DNA from: Gammaproteobacteria bacterium
Lineage (GTDB): Bacteria; Pseudomonadota; Gammaproteobacteria; Burkholderiales; Burkholderiaceae_C
Assembly (NCBI GenBank): GCA_018820395.1
Contig: JAHJOG010000156.1
Coordinates: 1-32,839, forward strand
Direction of reading: 5' to 3'
Length of the DNA: 32,839 bases
Under the pieces are notes generated by a model. That model searched no databases and had not been told where the DNA came from. It worked only from the letters and a program-made list of their open reading frames with translations. Position numbers and translations under genes: made by a program. This document shows, in pieces, positions 5,279 through 18,911 of this stretch (its first letter is position 1; each line of letters starts with the position of its first letter).

Positions 5279-7227
5279 TTTGTCTCTGTGGCCGCCAGTG
5301 CAGCGTCGCCGGCAAATGCGCGATAACCGCCCTTGCGCAGATGGACCATCAGCAAGGAAATCGCAGCGGGCGTGACACCTGAGATTCGAGACGCAAGCCC
5401 CAGTGTTTCTGGCCGATGCTTGGAGAGCTTCTGTCGAACTTCGAAGCTCAGTGCGGCAACCTTGCCGTAGTCCAAATCGTCTGGCAGCTTCAATTGCTCC
5501 AGATGGGCCGCCCGCGCGACTTCATCGTGCTGGCGACCGATGTAGCCGGAATACTTGGCCGAAATCTCGATCTGTTCGATCTCTATGGGTGACAGCGCAT
5601 CCGCGTCAGCCATCCGAAATTTGCCGCCATCCAAAGACATGAGATCCGCATAGCTGACGTTCGGTCGACGAAGCAGCTCGCCGAGGTTGTGCTCATGGTC
5701 GATTGCCTTGCCGAGCACGCGCTCGGAATCGGCTGCAGGCAGATTGCGCGGATTCACCCAAATCGAACGCAGCCGCTCTGTTTCACGTGAAACACGATCG
5801 CGCTTGCGGGCGAATGCGGTCCACCGAGCGTCGTCGATCAAGCCCAGTTTGCGCCCTGCTTCGGTCAATCGCAGATCTGCGTTGTCTTCACGAAGCTGTA
5901 GCCGATATTCGGCCCGGCTGGTGAACATGCGATACGGCTCTGTCACACCCTTGGTGATCAGGTCGTCGACCAGCACGCCAAGATAGGCCTCATCCCGCCG
6001 AGGCAGCCATGCCGGCTCGTCCCGGCACTGGAGTGCGGCGTTGATCCCGGCAAACAAGCCCTGCGCCGCCGCCTCTTCGTAGCCAGTCGTTCCATTGATC
6101 TGACCGGCAAAAAACAACCCGCGGATCGCGCGCGTTTCAAAGTTGCTCTTGAGTTCCCGCGGATCGAAGTAGTCGTACTCGATGGCGTACCCGGGCCGCA
6201 GAATGTGCGCTCGTTCAAGGCCCACCATCGAGCGCACGAGTTGGTACTGCACGTCGAAAGGCAGGCTGGTCGAGATGCCGTTCGGGTAATACTCGTGCGT
6301 GGTCAGCCCTTCCGGTTCAAGGAAGATCTGGTGGCTTTGCTTGTCCGCAAAGCGGTTGATTTTGTCCTCGACACTCGGACAGTACCGCGGACCCACGCCG
6401 TCGATCTTGCCCATGAACATGGGGCTTCGGTCGAACCCGGAGCGGATGATGTCGTGGGTTCGCTCGTTGGTATTCGTGATCCAGCATGGCCGCTGCTCGG
6501 GATGCATGTCCGCATTGCCCATGAAGCTGAACACCGGCATGGGGCCTTCTCCCCCTTCCATGCCGTCGCCCGGCTGACGCACACACCGATCGAAGTCGAT
6601 GGTGCGCCCGTCGAGGCGCGGCGGCGTGCCGGTCTTGAGCCTGCCTTGCGGAAGCTTCAACTCCTTCAGCCGAGCCGATAGGCTGATGGCCGGCGGATCG
6701 CCGGCGCGTCCGGCTTGATAGTTGTCGAGACCGACATGAATACGTCCATCCAGAAACGTTCCGGCGGTGAGGACCACCGTCCGCGCGCGAAAGGCAATCC
6801 CCACCTGAGTGACGGCACCCACCACGCGATCGCCCTCGACCATCAGGTCATCGACAGCTTGCTGGAAAAGCGAAAGATTCGGCTGATTCTCTAGACGACG
6901 CCGGATGGCCGCCTTGTAGAGCACCCGATCGGCCTGCGCGCGCGTCGCCCGCACGGCGGGGCCCTTGCTGGAGTTCAACAGCCGGAACTGGATTCCCGCT
7001 TCGTCGGTGGCGATGGCCATCGCACCGCCGAGTGCGTCCACCTCCTTGACGAGATGGCCCTTGCCGATTCCGCCGATCGACGGATTGCAGCTCATCTGCC
7101 CCAGGGTTTCGATGTTGTGCGTCAACAGCAGCGTGCGCGCGCCCATCCGCGCCGAAGCCAACGCGGCCTCGGTGCCGGCGTGACCGCCGCCAACGACGAT
7201 GACATCGAACTCTTCGGGATACAACAT
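5275..7227 (-). CDS. mnmG: tRNA uridine-5-carboxymethylaminomethyl(34) synthesis enzyme MnmG
   Basis: MnmG (GidA) is the FAD-dependent partner of MnmE that installs the cmnm5 group on wobble uridine 34 of certain tRNAs. The dinucleotide-binding motif [12 protein letters not shown] begins at residue 11. The family signatures [41 protein letters not shown] and [17 protein letters not shown] are all present, and the C-terminal MnmE-binding region is intact. I chose the ATG at 7227 (650 residues, [15 protein letters not shown]) by comparison with family proteins. An ATG two codons upstream (7233) is equally readable. The gene heads the minus-strand run ending with parB and contains a perfect parS site. 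Confidence 0.96.
5779..5794. other. Perfect parS ParB-binding site
   Basis: TGTTTCACGTGAAACA is an exact match to the universal 16-base palindromic parS consensus bound by ParB/Spo0J. It lies within the mnmG coding sequence, as is common for parS sites, about 1.8 kb from parA. Confidence 0.95.
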
Positions 7228-7271
7228 GGGCATACATGCGCCTGCCGGCGCAGCGGGGGGAAAGGGCTGCA

Positions 7272-7279
7272 ATTTTATC
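7272..7279 (-). promoter_or_regulatory. Possible -10 element upstream of mnmG
   Basis: On the minus strand GATAAAAT lies about 45 bases upstream of the mnmG start in an otherwise GC-rich gap. No convincing -35 hexamer is seen at the right distance. It would drive the whole mnmG-to-parB run. Confidence 0.3.
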
Positions 7280-7405
7280 GCTGGGGCCGATCTCCGACCC
7301 GAGAAAGGACATCGGCGCAAAGGCCGGAACAGTCCTTCCCCACTCAGACTGGGCGGAGCAATGCGCTATCAAATTCCTAGCATACCGCCCAGAAACCAAA
7401 ATGCC

Positions 7406-8275
7406 TTACGCGAGAGTGGCCACTGGCTTCTCGATCGCACCCGCACGGGCAGCCGAGGTCGGAGCCACGCCAACGGGAGCGCTCTCATCCTGCAGCTCCT
7501 CGATCGTCATGGTCTTGCTCGTCATGCTCACTGGCCCAAAGAGCGTGCAGAACGCCACGTCCTTGGCATCGCGACCAGTGCCCACACGCACCACCCGGTC
7601 CACCGGGGCCATGCGCGTCGGGTCGAACAGCACCCACCGCCCGCCGATCCAGGCTTCGAACACCGCATGAAAATCCTGTGGCGGCTCGTCGAACCAGACG
7701 TAGCCCACCACCAGCCGCGCCGGGATGTTGAGTGCGCGGCACAGGGTGATGCCCAGATGCGCGAAGTCCCGGCATACGCCTGCACGTTCCACGAACACTT
7801 CGCTGGCCGTGGTCGTCGACACGCTGCTGCCCGGCTCGTAGACGATGCTGTCGTGGATCCAGTCCGCCACCGCCTGCACGCGCCCGATGCCTGGCGTGAG
7901 ATGGCCGAACAGCTGCTGCGCTGCCCGCGACATCACATCCGACTCGCAATAGCGGCTGGGCATGAGGTAGTGCAGCACCTCATTGGGAATCCGATTGACC
8001 GGAACCTCCTCCAGATCCGGCGGCACCACGACGTGCGAGCGCTGAACGTGGGCGCGGTAGCGAATCTTGAGCGAGCCTGGCGCCGCGTCGAAGCGCACGA
8101 AGCGGTTCCCGCTTCCCTCGTCGCAAAAGGACTCGAAATCGCAGGCAGGCTCGATGACCAGCTCTTCGCTGATCACGGCCTGCGCCGACGTCTTCGCCGC
8201 CTCGATGTTCAGAAGAACGTGCGCCTCTCCGCCGACTCGATACTCGAGCACGGTTTCGACTTTTGAAAAATGCAT
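7406..8275 (-). CDS. Transglutaminase-like cysteine protease-fold protein
   Basis: A 289-residue cytoplasmic-looking protein of the transglutaminase-like superfamily. An N-terminal beta-rich region (about 1-105) precedes the core domain. The core carries a complete triad: Cys168 in ERAGVCRDFAHLGITLCRALN, His203 in DFHAVFEAWI, and Asp218 in WVLFDPTR. In bacteria such proteins are usually peptidases or amidases of unknown substrate, and many sit beside peptide-modification genes, which are not seen here. The ATG at 8275 is preceded by GAGGAAG at good spacing. An upstream in-frame ATG at 8293 would add six residues. A small DUF1328 membrane protein gene lies 59 bases upstream on the same strand. 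Confidence 0.85.
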   Translation of the reverse strand: MHFSKVETVLEYRVGGEAHVLLNIEAAKTSAQAVISEELVIEPACDFESFCDEGSGNRFVRFDAAPGSLKIRYRAHVQRSHVVVPPDLEEVPVNRIPNEVLHYLMPSRYCESDVMSRAAQQLFGHLTPGIGRVQAVADWIHDSIVYEPGSSVSTTTASEVFVERAGVCRDFAHLGITLCRALNIPARLVVGYVWFDEPPQDFHAVFEAWIGGRWVLFDPTRMAPVDRVVRVGTGRDAKDVAFCTLFGPVSMTSKTMTIEELQDESAPVGVAPTSAARAGAIEKPVATLA

Positions 8276-11654: not shown

Positions 11655-12434
11655 ATGCCACCCTCCCCGCGGATCCTCATCGCCGAAGACGAACCAGGCA
11701 TCGCCGACACGCTGCAATACGTGTTGAAGACCGACGGATTCGTCCCGGTCTGGTGCCCGACCGCTGCCGAGGCGCTCGCGCAATTCGCGGCCGAGCCGCC
11801 GGCTCTTGCGATCCTCGATGTCGGCCTCCCCGACATGAACGGCTTCGAACTCTTCAAGCGGCTGCAGGCCCTCTTGCGCGAACAGGGCGGCCCCGACGTG
11901 CCGATGCTGTTCCTCACGGCGCGCAGCGACGAGATCGACCGCGTGGTCGGCCTCGAACTCGGCGCCGACGACTACATCGCCAAGCCCTTCTCGCCACGCG
12001 AACTGGTGGCGCGCGTGCGCACCATCCTGCGACGCAGTGCGCGGCATGGCAACGGCTCCGCAAGCGGTCCGCCGCTCGCGACGGCGGCGCCGCAGGCGAC
12101 CGGTCAGCCCATGCTTCAGCCAATGCCCCAACTCCCCTTCGCGCTGGACGAAGAGCGCATGCAGATCCGCTACTACGGGCGCGTGCTGGAGCTCTCCCGC
12201 TACGAGTACGGGCTGCTGCGCCTGCTCGTGCAGCGCCCGGGCCGCGTCTTCACGCGCGACGAGATGCTGCAGCAGGTGTGGGACGACGCCAGCGACAGCT
12301 TCGACCGCACCGTCGATGCCCACGTCAAGACCCTGCGCGCCAAGCTGCGCGCCGTGGCGCCCGAGGTCGAGGCCATCCGCACCCTGCGCGGCACCGGCTA
12401 CGCGCTCAACGAGGCCCTGCCGGCTCGCGCGTGA
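11655..12434 (+). CDS. creB: OmpR-family response regulator, CreB-like
   Basis: A 259-residue response regulator. The receiver domain (about 5-120) has the acidic pocket Glu11-Asp12, phosphoacceptor Asp55 (LAILDVGLPDMNGFELFK), Thr88 and Lys110 (YIAKPFSPREL). A proline/glutamine-rich linker leads to a winged-helix DNA-binding domain (about 160-255) with LELSRYEYGLLRLLVQRPGRVFTRDEML and VDAHVKTLRAKL. The start at 11655 gives the standard opening PRILIAEDEPG. The stop overlaps the start of the sensor kinase (GTGA). I call it CreB because of strong overall likeness of the pair and the neighbouring CreB-type box before the VIT gene. It probably controls the exosortase block downstream. Confidence 0.85.
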   Translation: MPPSPRILIAEDEPGIADTLQYVLKTDGFVPVWCPTAAEALAQFAAEPPALAILDVGLPDMNGFELFKRLQALLREQGGPDVPMLFLTARSDEIDRVVGLELGADDYIAKPFSPRELVARVRTILRRSARHGNGSASGPPLATAAPQATGQPMLQPMPQLPFALDEERMQIRYYGRVLELSRYEYGLLRLLVQRPGRVFTRDEMLQQVWDDASDSFDRTVDAHVKTLRAKLRAVAPEVEAIRTLRGTGYALNEALPARA

Positions 12435-13879
12435 CCCGCCGGACGCGCATCTTCGTCGGCATCCTGCTGATCTACACGGCCGGCATCGCCTTTCTGCTCT
12501 ATCGCGTGGTCGGCGACATCGACCCGCGCTACCGCGAGTCCGCCGAAGAATCGATGGTCGAGACCTCGCAGTTGCTCGCCAGCCTGATCGAGCAGGACGT
12601 GATCGCCGGCGCCATCAACCCAGCGCGGCTCGGGCCTCTTTTTCGCTCCGTCTACGCACGGCAGTTCTCCGCACAGATCTACAACCTGCACAAGAGCCGC
12701 GTCGAACTGCGCGCCTATGTCACCGACCGCTCGGGGCGCGTGCTTTTCGATTCGCAGGGCCGCCATCAGGGCGAAGACTTCTCGCGCTGGCCGGACGTCG
12801 GCCGCACGCTCGCCGGCACCTACGGCGCGCGCACCACGCGCGACGTCGAGGGCGACCCCGCCAGCTCCGTGATGTACGTCGGCGCGCCGATCCGGTGGAA
12901 CAACGAGATCGTCGGCGTGGTCACGGTCGGCAAGCCGGCCCAGAGCTTCGGGCAGTTCGTCGAAGACGCGCGCGCCCGCACGCTCTGGGTGGGCGCAGGC
13001 TCGGCCCTGGCCCTGCTGGTGCTGGCCGTCATCGTGTCGATCTGGCTGGTGCGCCCCTTCGGCCTGATCACCGACTACCTGAGCTGGATGCGCACGCAGC
13101 ACGCCGGGCGCGGGCTCAGCATCGGTCGCATGACGAGAAAGGCCGTGGACGCCGTGCGTGCCGCCTTCGGCGAGATGCGCGACGCACTCACCGGCCGCAA
13201 CTACGTGGCGGACTACGTGCAGACCTTCACGCACGAGATCAAGAGCCCGCTCTCCGCGATCCGTGGCGCGGCCGAACTGATCCAGGAACCGTCGATGCCG
13301 GAGGACGAGCGCCGGCATTTCCTCGGCAACATCTCGCGCGAAACCCAGCGCATCCAGGAAATCGTCGACCGCATGATGGAGCTCACCGCGCTCGAAACGC
13401 GCCGCGTGCTGGCCCACAGCGAGCCCGTCGCCCTTGCGCCGCTGCTGCAGGAGGTGGCCGCCAGCGCGCGCAACATCGCCGCCGCCCGCGACGTCCGGCT
13501 CCTGGTGGCAACCCACACCGAAGCGCACGTCGAAGGCGACCCCTTCCTGCTACGCCGCGCGATCAGCAACCTGCTGGACAACGCCATCGACTTCTCGCCG
13601 GCCGGCTCCGAGGTTGCGCTCGCGCTCAACGCCACCACGCGGCAGGCGCGTATCACGGTGCGCGACCACGGCAGCGGCATTCCGGACTACGCGAAGGACA
13701 AGGTCTTCGAAAAGTTCTATTCGCTCGCCCGTCCTCAGGGCACCAAGAAAAGCACCGGCCTCGGCCTGGCGTTCGTGAAAGAAATCGCCGTGCTGCACCG
13801 CGGCCGGATCGAACTCACCAATGCGCCGCGCGGCGGCGCGATCGCCACGCTCACGCTGCCGCTGTCCACGGCCGGCTGA
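12431..13879 (+). CDS. creC: Sensor histidine kinase, CreC-like
   Basis: A 482-residue membrane histidine kinase starting with GTG at 12431, whose codon overlaps the creB stop. Transmembrane helices at about 7-25 and 187-207 enclose a periplasmic sensor region with a PAS/Cache-like section (VTDRSGRVLFDSQGRHQGEDFSRW, then VMYVGAPIRWNNEIVGVVTVGKP), the region typical of CreC. A HAMP-like linker leads to the H box FTHEIKSPLSAIRGAAELI with His268. The ATPase domain has the N box (NLLDNAIDFS), G1 (DHGSGIPDYA), F box (FEKFYSL) and G2 (GLGLAFVKEI). All catalytic motifs look intact. It should phosphorylate the CreB-like regulator in response to an envelope or nutrient signal that cannot be read from sequence. 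Confidence 0.87.
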   Translation: MTRRTRIFVGILLIYTAGIAFLLYRVVGDIDPRYRESAEESMVETSQLLASLIEQDVIAGAINPARLGPLFRSVYARQFSAQIYNLHKSRVELRAYVTDRSGRVLFDSQGRHQGEDFSRWPDVGRTLAGTYGARTTRDVEGDPASSVMYVGAPIRWNNEIVGVVTVGKPAQSFGQFVEDARARTLWVGAGSALALLVLAVIVSIWLVRPFGLITDYLSWMRTQHAGRGLSIGRMTRKAVDAVRAAFGEMRDALTGRNYVADYVQTFTHEIKSPLSAIRGAAELIQEPSMPEDERRHFLGNISRETQRIQEIVDRMMELTALETRRVLAHSEPVALAPLLQEVAASARNIAAARDVRLLVATHTEAHVEGDPFLLRRAISNLLDNAIDFSPAGSEVALALNATTRQARITVRDHGSGIPDYAKDKVFEKFYSLARPQGTKKSTGLGLAFVKEIAVLHRGRIELTNAPRGGAIATLTLPLSTAG

Positions 13880-13965
13880 GCGCCGCGCGAGCGCGACACC
13901 TCGGTGAACGCGCCTCCGAGACGGTCGTTGCGTGACGCCATCAGCGCGGCACACGCCCCGGCGAC

Positions 13966-13981
13966 TTCACGCAGACTTCAT
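13966..13981 (+). promoter_or_regulatory. CreB-type box (cre tag) upstream of the VIT gene
   Basis: TTCAC (13966-13970), six bases, then TTCAT (13977-13981). The E. coli CreB-binding cre tag is TTCAC-N6-TTCAC, so this matches nine of ten fixed positions with exact spacing. It lies about 95 bases before the VIT gene start and directly after the creC-like gene, in the only sizeable gap of the block. Confidence 0.5.
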
Positions 13982-14076
13982 ACAAGGTCTTCGCGCTTCG
14001 CACAGGCTTCCTATTCGCTCCTCGGTCGGGCACGACAGTCGTCAGCGTGCAACGTCGCACGCTTTCGAGGACCCTC

Positions 14077-16155
14077 ATGCCCGCCCCCTTCACCCTGTCG
14101 CGCCAGCGCCCCGTTCGCCTCTGGCTCGCGACGCTGAGCCTCTCGGCCGCCAGCTTCTTCGTGCTTCTTGCGCGCCCGCTGCACGCGCAAGAGACCGACG
14201 GGCCGCGCACCAAGACCGAGAGCCCGTACTTCTTCGTCAAGAGCGACGATCCAGCCGTCGACGCACTGCCGCTCAAGAGCACCGAGGTCGACGTGCGCGT
14301 GACGGGCGTGATCGCCGACGTGACCGTGCGGCAGACCTATCGCAACGAAGGCAAGCGCGCCATCGAGGCCAGGTACGTTTTCCCCGGCTCGACGCGCGCC
14401 GCGGTGAGCGGGCTCAACTTCCGCCTCGGTGACCGGCTCGTCACGGCGCAGATCCGCGAAAAGCAGCAGGCACGCATCGACTACGAAGCCGCTCGCCAGG
14501 AAGGCAAGACCGCCACGCTGCTCGAACAGCATCTGCCCAACGTCTTCCAGATGAACGTCGCCAACATCCTGCCGGGCGACGACATCCAGGTCGAGCTGCG
14601 CTACACCGAACTCCTCGTGCCGCAGGCCGGCAACTACCAGTTCGTCTTTCCGACGGTGGTGGGCCCACGCTACAACAGCCCGCAATCCGGGCAAGCCAAG
14701 TCGGCCTGGGTGGCCCAGCCGACCTTGCCAGCAGGCATGGCGCCGAGCACCCGGTTCAAGCTCAAGGTCGCGCTCGACATGCCCATGGGCATCAAGGAAG
14801 TGCGTTCGCTCACCCATGCGATCGACGTCCGCAAGCCACAGGACAACGCCACGCATGCCGACGTGCTCCTCGCCAACACCAGCGAGCCGGCCGACAACCG
14901 CGACTTCGTGCTCGACTATCGCCTGGCCGGCGAGCGCATCGAATCCGGCCTGATGCTCTACAAGGGCCAGGGCGACAACGCGGAGAACTTCTTTCTCGCG
15001 ATGATCGAGCCGCCCAAGGCCGTGGCCGCCAACGCCATTTCGCCGCGCGACTACATCTTCGTGGTCGACATCTCGGGCTCGATGCACGGCTTTCCGCTGG
15101 ACCTCGCCAAGGCCACGCTCGAACGCCTCATCGGCGGACTGCGGCCGAGCGACACCTTCAACGTGCTGCTCTTCTCGGGCAGCAACAAGATGCTCTCGCC
15201 GCACTCGGTGCCGGCCACCCGCGCCAACATCGACGGCGCGCTGCGCACCATCCAGCAATACAGCGGCAGCGGCAGCACCGAGCTCATTCCGGCGCTCAAG
15301 CGCGTCTATGCCGAGCCCAAGGACGACAAGGTCTCGCGCACGGTGGTGGTGGTCACCGACGGCTACGTCACTGTCGAACGCGAAGCCTTCGAGTTGGTAC
15401 GCAAAAACCTGTCCAAGGCCAACGTGTTCGCCTTCGGCATCGGCTCGTCGGTCAACCGTCACCTGATGGAAGGCCTCGCCAGAGCCGGCATGGGCGAGCC
15501 CTTCATCATCACCGACCCCATCGAAGCGCCCGCGCAGGCTGCACGCTTCCGCCAGATGGTCGAGTCGCCGGTGCTCACCAGCGTCAAGGCCCGCTTCGAA
15601 GGGCTCGACGTGTACGACGTGGAACCTGCCGCGCTGCCCGACGTGCTCGGCGAACGCCCGGTGGTGGTGTTCGGCAAGTGGCGCGGCGAGGCCAAGGGCC
15701 GCGTGTGGATCGAAGGCCAGGCAGCCGACGGGCCGTACCGCGCCGAGCTGAAGGTCGATGCCCTCGCCCGCCAGGACGCGGCCGCGCTGCGCAGCCTGTG
15801 GGCCCGCCATCGCATCGCGAGCCTGGACGACCAGGAAGCGCTCGAAGGCGGCGGCGCGTTCAAGGAGCGCATCACCGAACTCGGCCTGCGCTACGGATTG
15901 CTCACGCAATACACCAGCTTCATCGCGGTCGACCAGGTGGTGCGCAACACCACGCCGGGCAGCGCTGCACGCGTCGACCAGCCGCTGCCGCTGCCCAAGG
16001 GCGTGAGCGAACTCGCGGTCGGCCAGAGCCTCGGCGCGGCCGTGCCCAGCACGCCCGAGCCCGAAATGTTCGGCGCGATCGCCGTCGTCCTCGGCGTGCT
16101 GGCCATGCTGCGCCGGCGCGCGCGCCGCACCGATGCCCGCCGTCTGACGTCCTGA
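14077..16155 (+). CDS. Secreted VIT/vWA-domain protein with PEP-CTERM-like C-terminal sorting signal
   Basis: A 692-residue exported protein. A signal peptide (1-37, ending PLHA) precedes a VIT domain (about 55-185, with YRNEGKRAIEARYVFPGS) and a von Willebrand A domain (about 325-495) whose MIDAS motif DISGS (331-335) is intact. The C-terminus has TPEPEM (659-664), a short hydrophobic stretch (665-678) and RRRARR, the tripartite layout of a PEP-CTERM exosortase signal. The nearest family I know is the VIT/vWA target of the proteobacterial dedicated sortase system. The ATG at 14077 follows CGAGGA at good spacing and starts right before the signal peptide; a GTG at 14047 is the alternative. 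The exosortase gene begins 11 bases later, so this protein is the obvious substrate. Confidence 0.87.
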   Translation: MPAPFTLSRQRPVRLWLATLSLSAASFFVLLARPLHAQETDGPRTKTESPYFFVKSDDPAVDALPLKSTEVDVRVTGVIADVTVRQTYRNEGKRAIEARYVFPGSTRAAVSGLNFRLGDRLVTAQIREKQQARIDYEAARQEGKTATLLEQHLPNVFQMNVANILPGDDIQVELRYTELLVPQAGNYQFVFPTVVGPRYNSPQSGQAKSAWVAQPTLPAGMAPSTRFKLKVALDMPMGIKEVRSLTHAIDVRKPQDNATHADVLLANTSEPADNRDFVLDYRLAGERIESGLMLYKGQGDNAENFFLAMIEPPKAVAANAISPRDYIFVVDISGSMHGFPLDLAKATLERLIGGLRPSDTFNVLLFSGSNKMLSPHSVPATRANIDGALRTIQQYSGSGSTELIPALKRVYAEPKDDKVSRTVVVVTDGYVTVEREAFELVRKNLSKANVFAFGIGSSVNRHLMEGLARAGMGEPFIITDPIEAPAQAARFRQMVESPVLTSVKARFEGLDVYDVEPAALPDVLGERPVVVFGKWRGEAKGRVWIEGQAADGPYRAELKVDALARQDAAALRSLWARHRIASLDDQEALEGGGAFKERITELGLRYGLLTQYTSFIAVDQVVRNTTPGSAARVDQPLPLPKGVSELAVGQSLGAAVPSTPEPEMFGAIAVVLGVLAMLRRRARRTDARRLTS

Positions 16156-16166
16156 GGAGCTGCGAC

Positions 16167-17072
16167 ATGACCTTGACCACACTCGCCCAGAAGGCCCCGC
16201 GCGTCATGGATTTCGGCATCCGGCTCGACCGGCTGCCCGCGGTGGCCTGGCTGGCCCTGCAAGCGGCCGCATTGCTGCCCACCTGGATCTGGATGGGTCG
16301 ACGCCTGCTCGACCGCTCCGACGATCCGCTGGGCGCCGTCGCCATCTGCGCGCTGGGCGCGATGGTCTGGTGCGCCAGACACGATCTGCGCGCCGCACCC
16401 CGACTCGGCTGGCTGGCGCTGGCCACCGTCGGCACCTTGGCTGCCACGCTGCTGCGCGATGGCGCCGGCGCCGTGCCCGCCTGGCCGCCACTGGCGGTCG
16501 GCCTCGTCGCGGTGCTGGCCTTCGCCTCTGGGCTGCTCGCGTTCCTGCCGCGGCAGACGCCCGCCGCGCCGGTGGCCGGCCTGGCCGTGCTCGCCCTGCC
16601 GCTCTTGTCCTCGCTGCAGTTCTACGCCGGCTTCCCGCTGCGCGTCGTCACGGCCGAGGCCAGCCGCTGGCTGCTCGCGCCCGCGTTCAGCGTCGTGCGC
16701 GAAGGCACGAGCCTGGTGGTCGACGGCCGGCTGGTGATCGTCGACGCGCCCTGCTCCGGCATCCAGATGGCCTGGCTCGGCTACTTCACCGCCTGCGCGG
16801 TGGCGCTTTGGGCGCGCCGCGACGACCGCAGCTTTCTTCAGCGCCTGCCGGTGGTCGGGCTGCTGGTGCTGAGCGGCAACATCGTCCGCAACGCGATCCT
16901 GGTGGCGTTCGAAGCAGCCGACCGGCCGCTGGCGCCGTGGCTGCACGCCGGACTCGGGCTGGTCCTGCTGGCCGGTGTGTGCGGCACCATCGCGCGCGTG
17001 ATGGCGCCGCAGCTCTTCTCCCGCATCTTGCCGCGGGAGTCTTCCCGACTGTCGTCGACGAGGCCCGCATGA
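16167..17072 (+). CDS. Exosortase (Xrt family transpeptidase)
   Basis: A 301-residue polytopic membrane protein with about seven to eight hydrophobic segments. The exosortase catalytic residues are all visible: Cys196 in VDAPCSGIQMAWLGYFT, Arg241 in LSGNIVRNAILV, and His260 in APWLHAGLGLVLLAG. Exosortases cleave the C-terminal PEP-CTERM-type signal of exported proteins and are thought to pass them to a glycan or lipid carrier. The start at 16167 follows TGAGGAG. The upstream gene encodes a protein with such a signal; the downstream gene overlaps by ATGA and encodes an EpsI-like partner. The exact subclass cannot be settled from sequence alone. Confidence 0.88.
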   Translation: MTLTTLAQKAPRVMDFGIRLDRLPAVAWLALQAAALLPTWIWMGRRLLDRSDDPLGAVAICALGAMVWCARHDLRAAPRLGWLALATVGTLAATLLRDGAGAVPAWPPLAVGLVAVLAFASGLLAFLPRQTPAAPVAGLAVLALPLLSSLQFYAGFPLRVVTAEASRWLLAPAFSVVREGTSLVVDGRLVIVDAPCSGIQMAWLGYFTACAVALWARRDDRSFLQRLPVVGLLVLSGNIVRNAILVAFEAADRPLAPWLHAGLGLVLLAGVCGTIARVMAPQLFSRILPRESSRLSSTRPA

Positions 17073-17644
17073 ACCTGCCCATCCCCCTCCGCGCCTGGTT
17101 CAACAACACCTTCGTGCATCGCGTCGCCCACAAATGCGCCTTTGCGCTCGCGATGCTGACCTGCGTCGTCTGGTCGGCCGGCCAGGTGATCCAGGAATCC
17201 GACCCGCCCGCGCCGGCGGCCCGCTTCCACGAATGGCCGAGCAGCTGGGACGGCGCCGCACTGCGGCCGCTGGCCCTGAGCGACGTCGAGGAGCGCTTCG
17301 CGCAGCACTTTCCGGGCGCCATCGCGCGGCTCACCGACGGGCACCAGACGGTGGTGCTGCGCGAAGTACGGCAGCCGACGCGCATGCTGCATCCGGCCGT
17401 GGACTGCTACCGCGCGCTCGGCTGGCGGGTGGAGCAGATCCGCCTCGAACGCGACGCCGACGCCAGACTGTGGCGCTGCTTCGTCACCCGGCATGACAGC
17501 GCTCAAAAGTTACGCGTCTGCGAGCGGATCGTTGACGCCAAGGGCGCGACTTTCACCGACACTTCAGCCTGGTACTGGGCGGCTGCCAGCGGCGAATCGA
17601 AAGGGCCCTGGGAAGCTGTGACCCTGGCCAGACCGATTCCATGA
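17069..17644 (+). CDS. EpsI-like exosortase-associated protein
   Basis: A 191-residue protein with one N-terminal transmembrane helix (about 22-40) and a soluble, probably periplasmic domain. The motif MLHPAVDCYRALGWRVEQ (Cys113, Trp119) resembles the conserved cysteine region of EpsI-domain proteins, which are encoded next to or fused to exosortases. A second conserved-looking section is RLWRCFVTRHD. Its ATG overlaps the exosortase stop codon (ATGA), so the two are translationally coupled and likely act together. The biochemical role of EpsI-type proteins is not settled. Similarity is at motif level, so the family call is moderate. Confidence 0.65.
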   Translation: MNLPIPLRAWFNNTFVHRVAHKCAFALAMLTCVVWSAGQVIQESDPPAPAARFHEWPSSWDGAALRPLALSDVEERFAQHFPGAIARLTDGHQTVVLREVRQPTRMLHPAVDCYRALGWRVEQIRLERDADARLWRCFVTRHDSAQKLRVCERIVDAKGATFTDTSAWYWAAASGESKGPWEAVTLARPIP

Positions 17645-17651
17645 GAGCCAT

Positions 17652-18911
17652 TTGAAAACCACGCTGCGCTACCTGCTTTTCGCCTTCCTGGCCCTGGCGC
17701 TGACCGCCTGTGCAGCGATCTACCTCGTCCTTCGCCTCGCGCTCGCCCCCGGCCCGGACGAATGGCCGGCGCGCGTCAAGGTCGGGCCGGTGTCGCTCGA
17801 CGTCGGCGTGCCGACCGCCCTGCGGCTGGCCACTTCGACCTGGTTCGCACCCTGGATCGACGGCCACTCGCTCGACACCCGCTACGGCACCGTCCACTTC
17901 GCCTGGGACGCGCCGGGCACCACGCTCGCACTCCGGTGCGCGCCTTGCACCGCCTCGGTGCCTTCGCTCAGCAGCCAGCCGATCCGGCTCGAGCAATTGC
18001 GCCTCACCGCCCGCAGGGACGCCGCCACGCTCGCCGGGACGATCGAAGTGTCGTCGGCCGCGGATGCGCCTGCGGACGACACCCTGCGCGCCCGCTGGAA
18101 CGGGCGGCTCTCGCAAAAAGACCTGCACGTGAGCATTGACGCCGACGAGGCGCCGATTGCCCGCTGGTACGCGGCCCTGTCTCCCCGCCTGCCCGAACTG
18201 CAGCAGGCGCGCATCGGCGGAACCATGGCGCTGCGCGCGCAGATCACCCTGCCGGCGGGCAGCTTCGCGGTGCAGCCGCGCATTTCCGATTTCACCGTCG
18301 AAGGCCTGGGCACCGAGGCCATGCTCAACGCGCGCAGCGCCTGCGGGGCGCCGAGCCGCCTCACGACCGAAAGCTTGCTGGCCCGTGCCGTGGTCGCCGC
18401 CGAAGACCAGCGCTTCTACCAGCATCCGGGCTACGACCTCGCCGAGCTGATGGCCTCGCTCGACCTCAACCAGAAGGCCGGCCGCGTCGAGCGCGGGGCC
18501 AGCACGCTCACTCAGCAGCTGGCGCGACTGATCGTCACCGGCGGCGAACGCACGGCCGAGCGCAAGCTCCGGGAGCTGCTCTATGCGGTCGAGATGGAAC
18601 AAACGCTCGGCAAGGCGCGCATCCTCCAGCTGTACCTCGACAACGCACCGTGGGGGTCGGGCGTGTGCGGCGCCGAGGCCGCGGCCCGGCACTACTTCAA
18701 GCGCAGCGCGCGCGTGCTCGACCTGCCGCAGTCGGTGTGGCTCGCAGCCCTCTTGACCAACCCGGACGCCGCCGTCGACCAGTGGAAGCGCGAGGGCAAG
18801 CTCGACCCGGCCCGGCTCAAGGCCGTCATCGAAGGCCTGCGCGGCATCAGCCGCCAGCAGCGCGAACAACTGAGCGCACGGCTGGCGGACAACAGGTTCG
18901 CACCAAACTAG
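17652..18911 (+). CDS. Stand-alone GT51 peptidoglycan glycosyltransferase
   Basis: A 419-residue protein. An N-terminal membrane anchor (about 4-30) is followed by some 200 residues without a recognisable domain and then a GT51 transglycosylase domain (about 235-405). Catalytic motifs are present: VVAAEDQRFYQHPGYD (first glutamate), RGASTLTQQLARL, RKLRELLYAVEMEQTLGKARILQLYLDNAPWG (second glutamate region), and GAEAAARHYF. There is no penicillin-binding transpeptidase domain. Such enzymes polymerise lipid II into glycan strands. The start is a TTG at 17652, eight bases after the EpsI-like gene stop, preceded by GAGAG; a later start would remove the anchor. It closes the exosortase block and suggests that the block acts on the cell wall. 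Confidence 0.85.
   Translation: MKTTLRYLLFAFLALALTACAAIYLVLRLALAPGPDEWPARVKVGPVSLDVGVPTALRLATSTWFAPWIDGHSLDTRYGTVHFAWDAPGTTLALRCAPCTASVPSLSSQPIRLEQLRLTARRDAATLAGTIEVSSAADAPADDTLRARWNGRLSQKDLHVSIDADEAPIARWYAALSPRLPELQQARIGGTMALRAQITLPAGSFAVQPRISDFTVEGLGTEAMLNARSACGAPSRLTTESLLARAVVAAEDQRFYQHPGYDLAELMASLDLNQKAGRVERGASTLTQQLARLIVTGGERTAERKLRELLYAVEMEQTLGKARILQLYLDNAPWGSGVCGAEAAARHYFKRSARVLDLPQSVWLAALLTNPDAAVDQWKREGKLDPARLKAVIEGLRGISRQQREQLSARLADNRFAPN

Follow-up and report, generated by a model that had tools for sequence, protein, structure and literature searches.

A probable CreBC-controlled exosortase Q system with a single VIT/vWA target in a Burkholderiaceae_C genome

The stretch of DNA analysed here (the window) comprises the 32,839 nucleotides of contig JAHJOG010000156.1, from a Gammaproteobacteria bacterium placed by GTDB in the Burkholderiaceae_C; the system under study occupies positions 11655-18911, where six genes lie on the + strand throughout: creB, creC, a gene for a VIT/vWA protein with a PEP-CTERM tail, the genes for an exosortase and an EpsI-like protein, and a gene for a GT51 glycosyltransferase (Table 1). 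An earlier reading, made without database searches (the sequence-only reading), had taken them for a dedicated exosortase system that is complete in itself, with CreBC-like regulators and a single VIT target. The present analysis supports this description, and the six genes, their places and the single strand are borne out by the reading frames and the family models. Furthermore, the arrangement is not a chance one, because it recurs in relatives. Two points go beyond the earlier reading: the exosortase belongs to a named family, exosortase Q (XrtQ), and a cre tag stands ahead of the VIT gene.

The host genome is a 5.28-Mb draft (99% complete, 331 contigs), and the closest named relatives of the window exosortase are mostly Variovorax (best 80 of 234). 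At the locus, creC starts with GTG and overlaps the creB stop by 4 bp, and the start of the EpsI-like gene overlaps the exosortase stop (ATGA). For the VIT frame, which is also open from GTG 14047, a start at ATG 14077, immediately preceding the signal peptide, is more likely; the cre tag lies 96-111 bp upstream of this ATG, in the gap that separates creC from the VIT gene.

Table 1. Features of the exosortase Q locus, with positions in the window and the matches that support them (E, expectation value).
Feature	Positions	Strand	Evidence
creB-type response regulator	11655-12434	+	NF008296 (CreB) 301.7 bits, cut-off 273; PF00072 and PF00486
creC-type sensor histidine kinase	12431-13879	+	NF008312 (CreC) 580.9 bits, cut-off 356
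cre/blr tag, proposed CreB operator, TTCACGCAGACTTCAT	13966-13981	+	one mismatch to TTCACN6TTCAC
VIT/vWA target, signal peptide and C-terminal PEP-CTERM tail	14077-16155	+	PF08487 116.9 bits (cut-off 26.5); VWA_3 68.2 bits
C-terminal sorting signal, VPSTPEP, hydrophobic helix and RRRARR	16042-16152	+	read by eye; tail model A2
Exosortase Q (XrtQ), Cys196, Arg241, His260	16167-17072	+	NF012182 381.2 bits, curated cut-off 270
EpsI-like partner, N-terminal helix and alpha/beta domain	17069-17644	+	NF033770 positions 290-395, E 8.7e-8
GT51 peptidoglycan glycosyltransferase, domain at amino acids 242-374	17652-18911	+	PF00912 146.5 bits (cut-off 27); TTG start

Exosortase Q, its target and the conserved neighbourhood

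The search against the Xrt subfamily models placed the window exosortase in exosortase Q, above the curated cut-off of the family. The residues named by the sequence-only reading, Cys196, Arg241 and His260, are exact with the start at 16167; they correspond to C177, R222 and H241 of alignment A1 (30 of the 33 XrtQ sequences over the cut-off), where they are invariant in 30 of 30 sequences, and we take the Cys, Arg and His of exosortases to be their catalytic residues. XrtQ passes the cut-off in 33 of the 200 genomes of the family and in two of the 369 genomes sampled from the class, the own genome included. Wherever XrtQ genomes are counted below, their number is 36: from 38 matches, G033 and G170 (23-29 bits) were not counted, being other exosortases, and G027, G118 and G148, whose matches are below the cut-off or fragmentary, were taken in.

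In the own genome a single PF09721 match, hence one exosortase, and one VIT-domain protein were found. The tail of the VIT protein, VPSTPEPEMFGAIAVVLGVLAMLRRRARR, consists of PEP, a hydrophobic helix and an Arg cluster; these elements were read by eye, as were the signal peptide and the metal-site motif DISGS of the vWA domain. From 23 of 31 VIT tails (seven near-duplicates and that of L061, with PEA, being left out) a model of 43 positions, A2, was built, which matches the window tail with E 9.9e-22, this tail being part of the model. Probing the own genome with A2 retrieved eight matches at E<=10, none of which, apart from the VIT tail, extends over the full signal; the next-best match (E 2e-4) spans positions 15-39 and does not cover PEP. 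Four of the eight sites were read (L191, L196, L206, and L214), with a PEP tail at L191 (the VIT protein) only, and the other four have E of 0.8 or more; the VIT tail is thus the only full PEP-type tail seen with a short model that can miss divergent tails, in a genome that is a draft. PF07589 gave no match at E<=1 in the own genome and missed the VIT tail itself; therefore, it is uninformative as a counter of PEP tails. According to these data, the many other PEP-CTERM proteins that would speak against dedication were not seen, and a many-target PEP-CTERM system in the host genome was rejected, given the single full PEP tail and the single exosortase.

Eight XrtQ genomes were examined in this respect, and 30 of the listed A2 matches across XrtQ genomes were fetched for reading. 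Four of the eight harbor XrtQ alone (the own genome, G122, G015, and G079). The remaining four (G060, G091, G121, and G197), which are those with additional PEP tails among the sites read, have one or two more exosortases each, scoring 197-237 bits. In this small set, XrtQ pairs with one target, and the other exosortases with classical tails.

A second full VIT/vWA protein was observed in G015 (L176:6627-9143, + strand; TIGR03788-type, 428 bits); it ends in an OmpA domain (PF00691, amino acids 721-806) and has no PEP-CTERM tail. The OmpA domain is a peptidoglycan-binding fold, hinting that this protein is a wall-bound paralogue.

As to the partner protein, its match to exosortase T (NF033770; Table 1) is confined to the C-terminal part of that model, and it has no Pfam match, PF11984 (DUF3485) included; among the 30 EpsI-like members of alignment A5, two match PF11984, with a best E of 0.14. 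The label "EpsI-like" of the sequence-only reading is thus weaker than the other assignments. The predicted structure (predicted local distance difference test, pLDDT, 88.8) retrieved no match from the PDB at E<=0.001, and the N-terminal helix is probably membrane-spanning. XrtQ and the EpsI-like protein were also observed in one stop-to-stop frame in 10 of the 104 loci (L042, L048, L053, L057, L061, L062, L101, L106, L121, and L126), resembling, at the level of reading frames only, a fused exosortase T.

Conservation of the neighbourhood, which the sequence-only reading had singled out as a check, was counted on 91 of the 104 unique loci, the window included; these are non-redundant and have enough flank, and genes were assigned with BLAST bit thresholds, divergent members counting as absent (for instance L056, with a partial VIT gene). 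The EpsI-like gene is present in 91, the VIT gene in 90, GT51 in 89 and CreC in 80 of them, followed by a penicillin-binding protein (PBP) of the PBP1 type (65), CreB (64), and CreD (47). In the family sample only (28 loci), the respective values are 28 for EpsI-like, 27 for VIT, 27 for GT51, 21 for CreC, three for PBP1-type, 20 for CreB, and four for CreD. VIT, XrtQ, EpsI-like, and GT51 genes, where found, lie on one strand in all 91 loci, and CreD (47 of 47) and the PBP (65 of 65) lie on the opposite one (domains were checked on L090 for CreD and on L090 and L125 for the PBP). Moreover, in the 200 family genomes, the own one included, VIT matches of at least 269 bits occur in 33, all within the 36 XrtQ genomes, and a GT51 with the N-terminal domain described below occurs in 34, of which 33 are XrtQ genomes and one belongs to the 164 others. 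A loss of the neighbourhood in relatives was not seen in the 91 loci.

CreBC regulators and the cre tag

Both window regulators pass the CreB and CreC models (Table 1), and the published CreB operator, TTCACN6TTCAC (PMC4689548, in the part available), was therefore predicted upstream of the VIT gene. Over some 330 bp of upstream DNA, 106 of 109 loci have an exact copy of the tag as their best match, and three, the window among them, have one with a single mismatch; the 109 derive from 112 candidates, L056 (partial VIT), L104 (no VIT) and L149 (short upstream region) being left out. Twenty letter shuffles per upstream region gave no exact tag and a mean of 1.2 one-mismatch tags per 109. A scan of 2,078,636 bases from 109 loci (window, L056 and L104 excluded, L149 included) found 116 exact tags, 113 of which are within 330 bp upstream of a VIT start. 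The 109 loci are partly redundant, and after the removal of similar flanks the tag is exact in 50 of 53. In the non-redundant upstream regions it stands out from its surroundings as a conserved block, which extends to ACTTCACaCaGACTTCACACA. L038, L042, L044, L045, and L049 have two or three copies with a period of 11 bp, and the tag is retained in L053, L058, L059, and L060, where the fetched locus shows no creBC.

As a control, the search was repeated on the DNA preceding VIT genes of the sortase type, whose products exceed the TIGR03788 cut-off (29 of the 30 loci L218-L247, L239 being too short): the exact tag occurs in none of the 29, and the sites have one mismatch in one region, two in 10 and three in 18. 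The class GN sortase (TIGR03784, cut-off 158) adjoins three of these control targets (L259-L261, with 190, 224, and 211 bits, respectively). Likewise, no tag with one mismatch or fewer is present in the fetched DNA of the loci pairing exosortase T (XrtT) with a VIT protein (L165, L257, and L258), nor in that of L162 and L163; stray one-mismatch tags occur in L261 and L262.

A further one-mismatch site of the window, at 17552, was discarded, as it falls within the coding sequence of the EpsI-like gene (TTC ACC GAC ACT TCA, read as FTDTS); its 16 bases recur in L090 at 11334. In Pseudomonas aeruginosa, the loss of PBP4 activates CreBC, and CreBC is tied to wall stress and the beta-lactam response (PMC2654508, in the part available).

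The GT51 protein and the interpretation of the locus

The glycosyltransferase contains the GT51 motifs AEDQRF and RKLRE, and a Foldseek search with it led to GT51 structures (best E 7.4e-8); membership in MtgA (TIGR02070) was rejected at 134.1 bits, below the cut-off of 182.65. In alignment A3 (30 of 33 GT51 sequences, L035, L053, and L061 being left out; alignments A4 and A5 hold 29 and 30 of 34, respectively), conservation reaches 90% or more at the motif positions E251 and E308 and at C231 and C339, and the N-terminus comprises a helix and an N-terminal domain with an invariant CxxC (C96, C99). For this domain the fold search gave no match beyond the GT51 part, and the matches to YhdP and AsmA are weak (two of 29 each, best E 0.034), so that no family is assigned to it.

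The GT51 gene and the exosortase genes can be found apart. G129 (L256) harbors creB, creC, an exact tag, a short reading frame and then GT51, with no match to VIT, XrtQ, or EpsI-like proteins in the fetched 18 kb; its GT51 falls within the clade of XrtQ-linked GT51s (enclosing node 0.998, exact place weakly supported), so that it is simpler to assume that the sorting genes were lost. The reverse case is seen in L055 (G035) and L161 (G508): both have VIT, XrtQ, and EpsI-like genes, and the 17-18 kb fetched contain no match to GT51; the genome G035 also gave no GT51 match at E<=1e-40. Being separable in this way, GT51 would be a co-regulated member linked to CreBC and not an obligatory component of sorting. 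For the same reason, the proposal of the sequence-only reading that GT51 points to a target displayed on, or acting on, peptidoglycan is not established. A GT51 homologue with degraded motifs, which may be inactive, was observed in L131 (19486-20772, + strand), about 8 kb downstream of the EpsI-like gene.

We regard a dedicated exosortase system under CreBC control as the probable reading of the locus. CreC would sense an envelope or metabolic signal, and phosphorylated CreB would bind the intergenic cre tag downstream of creC and switch on VIT, xrtQ, the EpsI-like gene and GT51 as a putative operon, presumably read as a single transcript. The VIT/vWA protein would be exported by its signal peptide, with its PEP-CTERM tail then anchoring it to the inner membrane; judging from what is known of the families, XrtQ, with its Cys, Arg and His, would cut this tail near PEP and transfer or release the protein to the envelope, and the EpsI-like protein would assist this step. 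GT51 may make glycan strands from lipid II, as wall support within the same response.

Some observations weigh against this reading. The window tag, taken alone, is not significant: the window has two one-mismatch sites, and 29 of 100 shuffles gave at least two (the creD tag of Stenotrophomonas maltophilia likewise has one mismatch; PMC4689548, in the part available). No PF06123 match, hence no CreD, was found in the host genome, so that its Cre circuit may be partly decayed, and CreC was not found in 11 of the 91 loci, where the search covered the fetched locus and some ends are too near (e.g., L033). PEP reads PEA or PEQ in three tails (L057, L061, and L063), and the EpsI membership of the partner is suggested by weak matches. 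Lastly, the sequence distances computed for the genes are correlated (0.73 for VIT-XRT, 0.79 for XRT-GT51 and 0.28-0.39 for the pairs with EpsI-like; 0 of 500 permutations each), and such correlated divergence shows common inheritance and not function.

Different roles can be envisaged for the sorting step. GT51 might perform the last part of it, XrtQ coupling the VIT protein to lipid II or a stem peptide and GT51 polymerising the product, in the manner of sortase A and a glycosyltransferase in Gram-positive bacteria. The presence of GT51 in 89 of the 91 loci, the N-terminal-domain form in 33 of the 36 XrtQ genomes versus one of 164 others, the conservation of E251 and E308, the multimodular PBP in 65 loci (domains checked on two), and the OmpA ending of the VIT paralogue of G015 are in line with this. 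However, L055 and L161 have the VIT, XrtQ, and EpsI-like genes with no GT51 match, G129 shows creBC, tag, and GT51 with no match to those genes, both within the fetched DNA, and the motifs of the L131 homologue are degraded; moreover, we know of no lipid II acceptor for exosortases, and we consider such a role improbable. No greater probability is given to a fuller version, in which XrtQ would join the VIT/vWA protein to a lipid II-type acceptor upon wall damage and GT51, in this CreBC-induced response, would polymerise it into peptidoglycan; if true, a vWA adhesion or repair protein would be placed at damaged wall sites, a covalent display in a Gram-negative bacterium. A narrower form of the dedicated system is that XrtQ only trims the C-terminal anchor, the VIT protein being released outside, to the outer membrane or to exopolysaccharide, with GT51 as a separate enzyme of the regulon. 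The separable gene content favors this, together with the link of classical PEP-CTERM/exosortase systems with exopolysaccharide (PMC1569441, in the part available), whereas a role at the wall is suggested by the neighbouring wall synthase and creBC genes; this form is a real possibility, which we would place just short of an even balance.

It is very improbable, in our view, that the locus represents conserved gene order only, with CreBC controlling creD and the tag belonging to a divergent creD promoter. A creD match does lie on the strand opposite XrtQ in 47 of the 91 fetched loci, and the only exact tag of L090 (7744) is located between creD (6186-7661) and VIT. Nevertheless, the tag keeps the VIT orientation across 53 distinct upstream regions, also in loci with no creD match; compact creC-tag-VIT loci with no such match exist (e.g., L034, L039, L040, and L043); and in G129 the tag stands ahead of GT51, the fetched DNA containing no match to creD (CreD being assigned at a BLAST threshold of 250 bits, so that a divergent CreD could be missed).

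Exosortases have mostly been discussed as many-target systems tied to exopolysaccharide, and, to our knowledge, their acceptor and physiological trigger are largely open. If the dedicated system under CreBC control is the right reading, an exosortase with one target, a regulator, and an operator would offer a clean model, with one substrate, one peptidase, and a known switch. In turn, CreBC would gain a conserved candidate target operon in Variovorax and related soil bacteria, whose products would act at the envelope, and its purpose in the cell could then be tested directly. The name of the XrtQ family, the exchangeable sorting signals of VIT proteins, and XrtT- and XrtN-like pairs with VIT proteins are already known; the control by CreBC and the GT51 member would be new. 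Among the matches listed from the open-access literature there was no paper on XrtQ or on CreBC together with an exosortase, and a full-text search of this literature for the names of exosortase Q gave no exosortase paper by title.

Comparison with known systems

The sequence-only reading had seen in the locus the plan of the proteobacterial dedicated sortase system, with an exosortase in place of the sortase. The plan is indeed similar, with a two-component pair, a single VIT/vWA target related over its length, and an adjoining sorting enzyme; the parts are others, namely an exosortase, a PEP-CTERM tail, and CreBC here, and a sortase, an LPxTA-like tail, and a regulator pair of its own there. 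The window target shares 27-33% identity with the sortase targets that exceed the TIGR03788 cut-off of 551.65 (L218-L247); its own score with this model, 422 bits, is below it; the regulators score 125.5 versus a cut-off of 335.7 with TIGR03787 and 105.5 versus 612.2 with TIGR03785. Neither the class GN sortase (TIGR03784) nor a TIGR03788 target over the cut-off was found in any of the 200 family genomes, the own one included. Membership in this system was thus ruled out, given the absence of the GN sortase and a target and regulators below the cut-offs. Beside one such GN sortase and its VIT target, in G242, a PBP1B gene (TIGR02071, 892 bits) was observed just downstream (L260:9263-11590, + strand), a further case of a wall synthase next to a dedicated sorting locus; L259, L261, and L262, also examined, gave no such match.

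Exosortase T loci (NF033770, cut-off 250) share with the window an exosortase and an EpsI-like part adjoining a TIGR03788-type VIT protein, with a PEP tail in L165 and L257; L165 and L258 score 620 and 488 bits, respectively, and L257 was assigned by its 82% identity to L165. Unlike the window, they have a fused EpsI-like part, and their fetched DNA contains neither a GT51 match nor a cre tag; in L258, PEP is missing from the tail. The XrtN system (TIGR04477) and the loci L162 and L163 share a VIT protein, an exosortase, an EpsI-like protein, a two-component pair, and PEP tails. In L162 and L163, in contrast, the VIT protein has an N-terminal hydrophobic region, TIGR04477 gives 118 and 106 bits versus 250, and there is no cre tag; TIGR04477 is not among the three families matched by the window VIT protein at E<=0.01. 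These two clusters (L162:8075-14417 and L163:1519-8358) represent a separate type, with a divergent XrtQ-like exosortase (147 and 140 bits, cut-off 270), a large VIT protein with a PEP tail, an EpsI-like protein, and a two-component pair transcribed divergently; G498, the genome of L162, also holds an over-cut-off TIGR03788 target elsewhere.

A VIT/vault-type family whose members bear GlyGly-CTERM, LPXTG, or PEP-CTERM tails, matched to different sorting enzymes, was described in 2011, including Verrucomicrobium spinosum (PMC3237569); that description concerns other taxa, and the available part of it mentions neither CreBC nor GT51. ShkRS of Variovorax paradoxus (PMC3283707) and BiofilmReg of Burkholderia (PMC5192318) were considered and, according to the parts of these papers available, are different systems. 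Finally, the CreBC/CreD systems of Escherichia coli, P. aeruginosa, and S. maltophilia, and BlrAB in Aeromonas, share with the window the regulators and the operator TTCACN6TTCAC (PMC4689548, in the part available); the marker target there is creD, whereas here, in a genome without creD, the tag heads the predicted exosortase operon.

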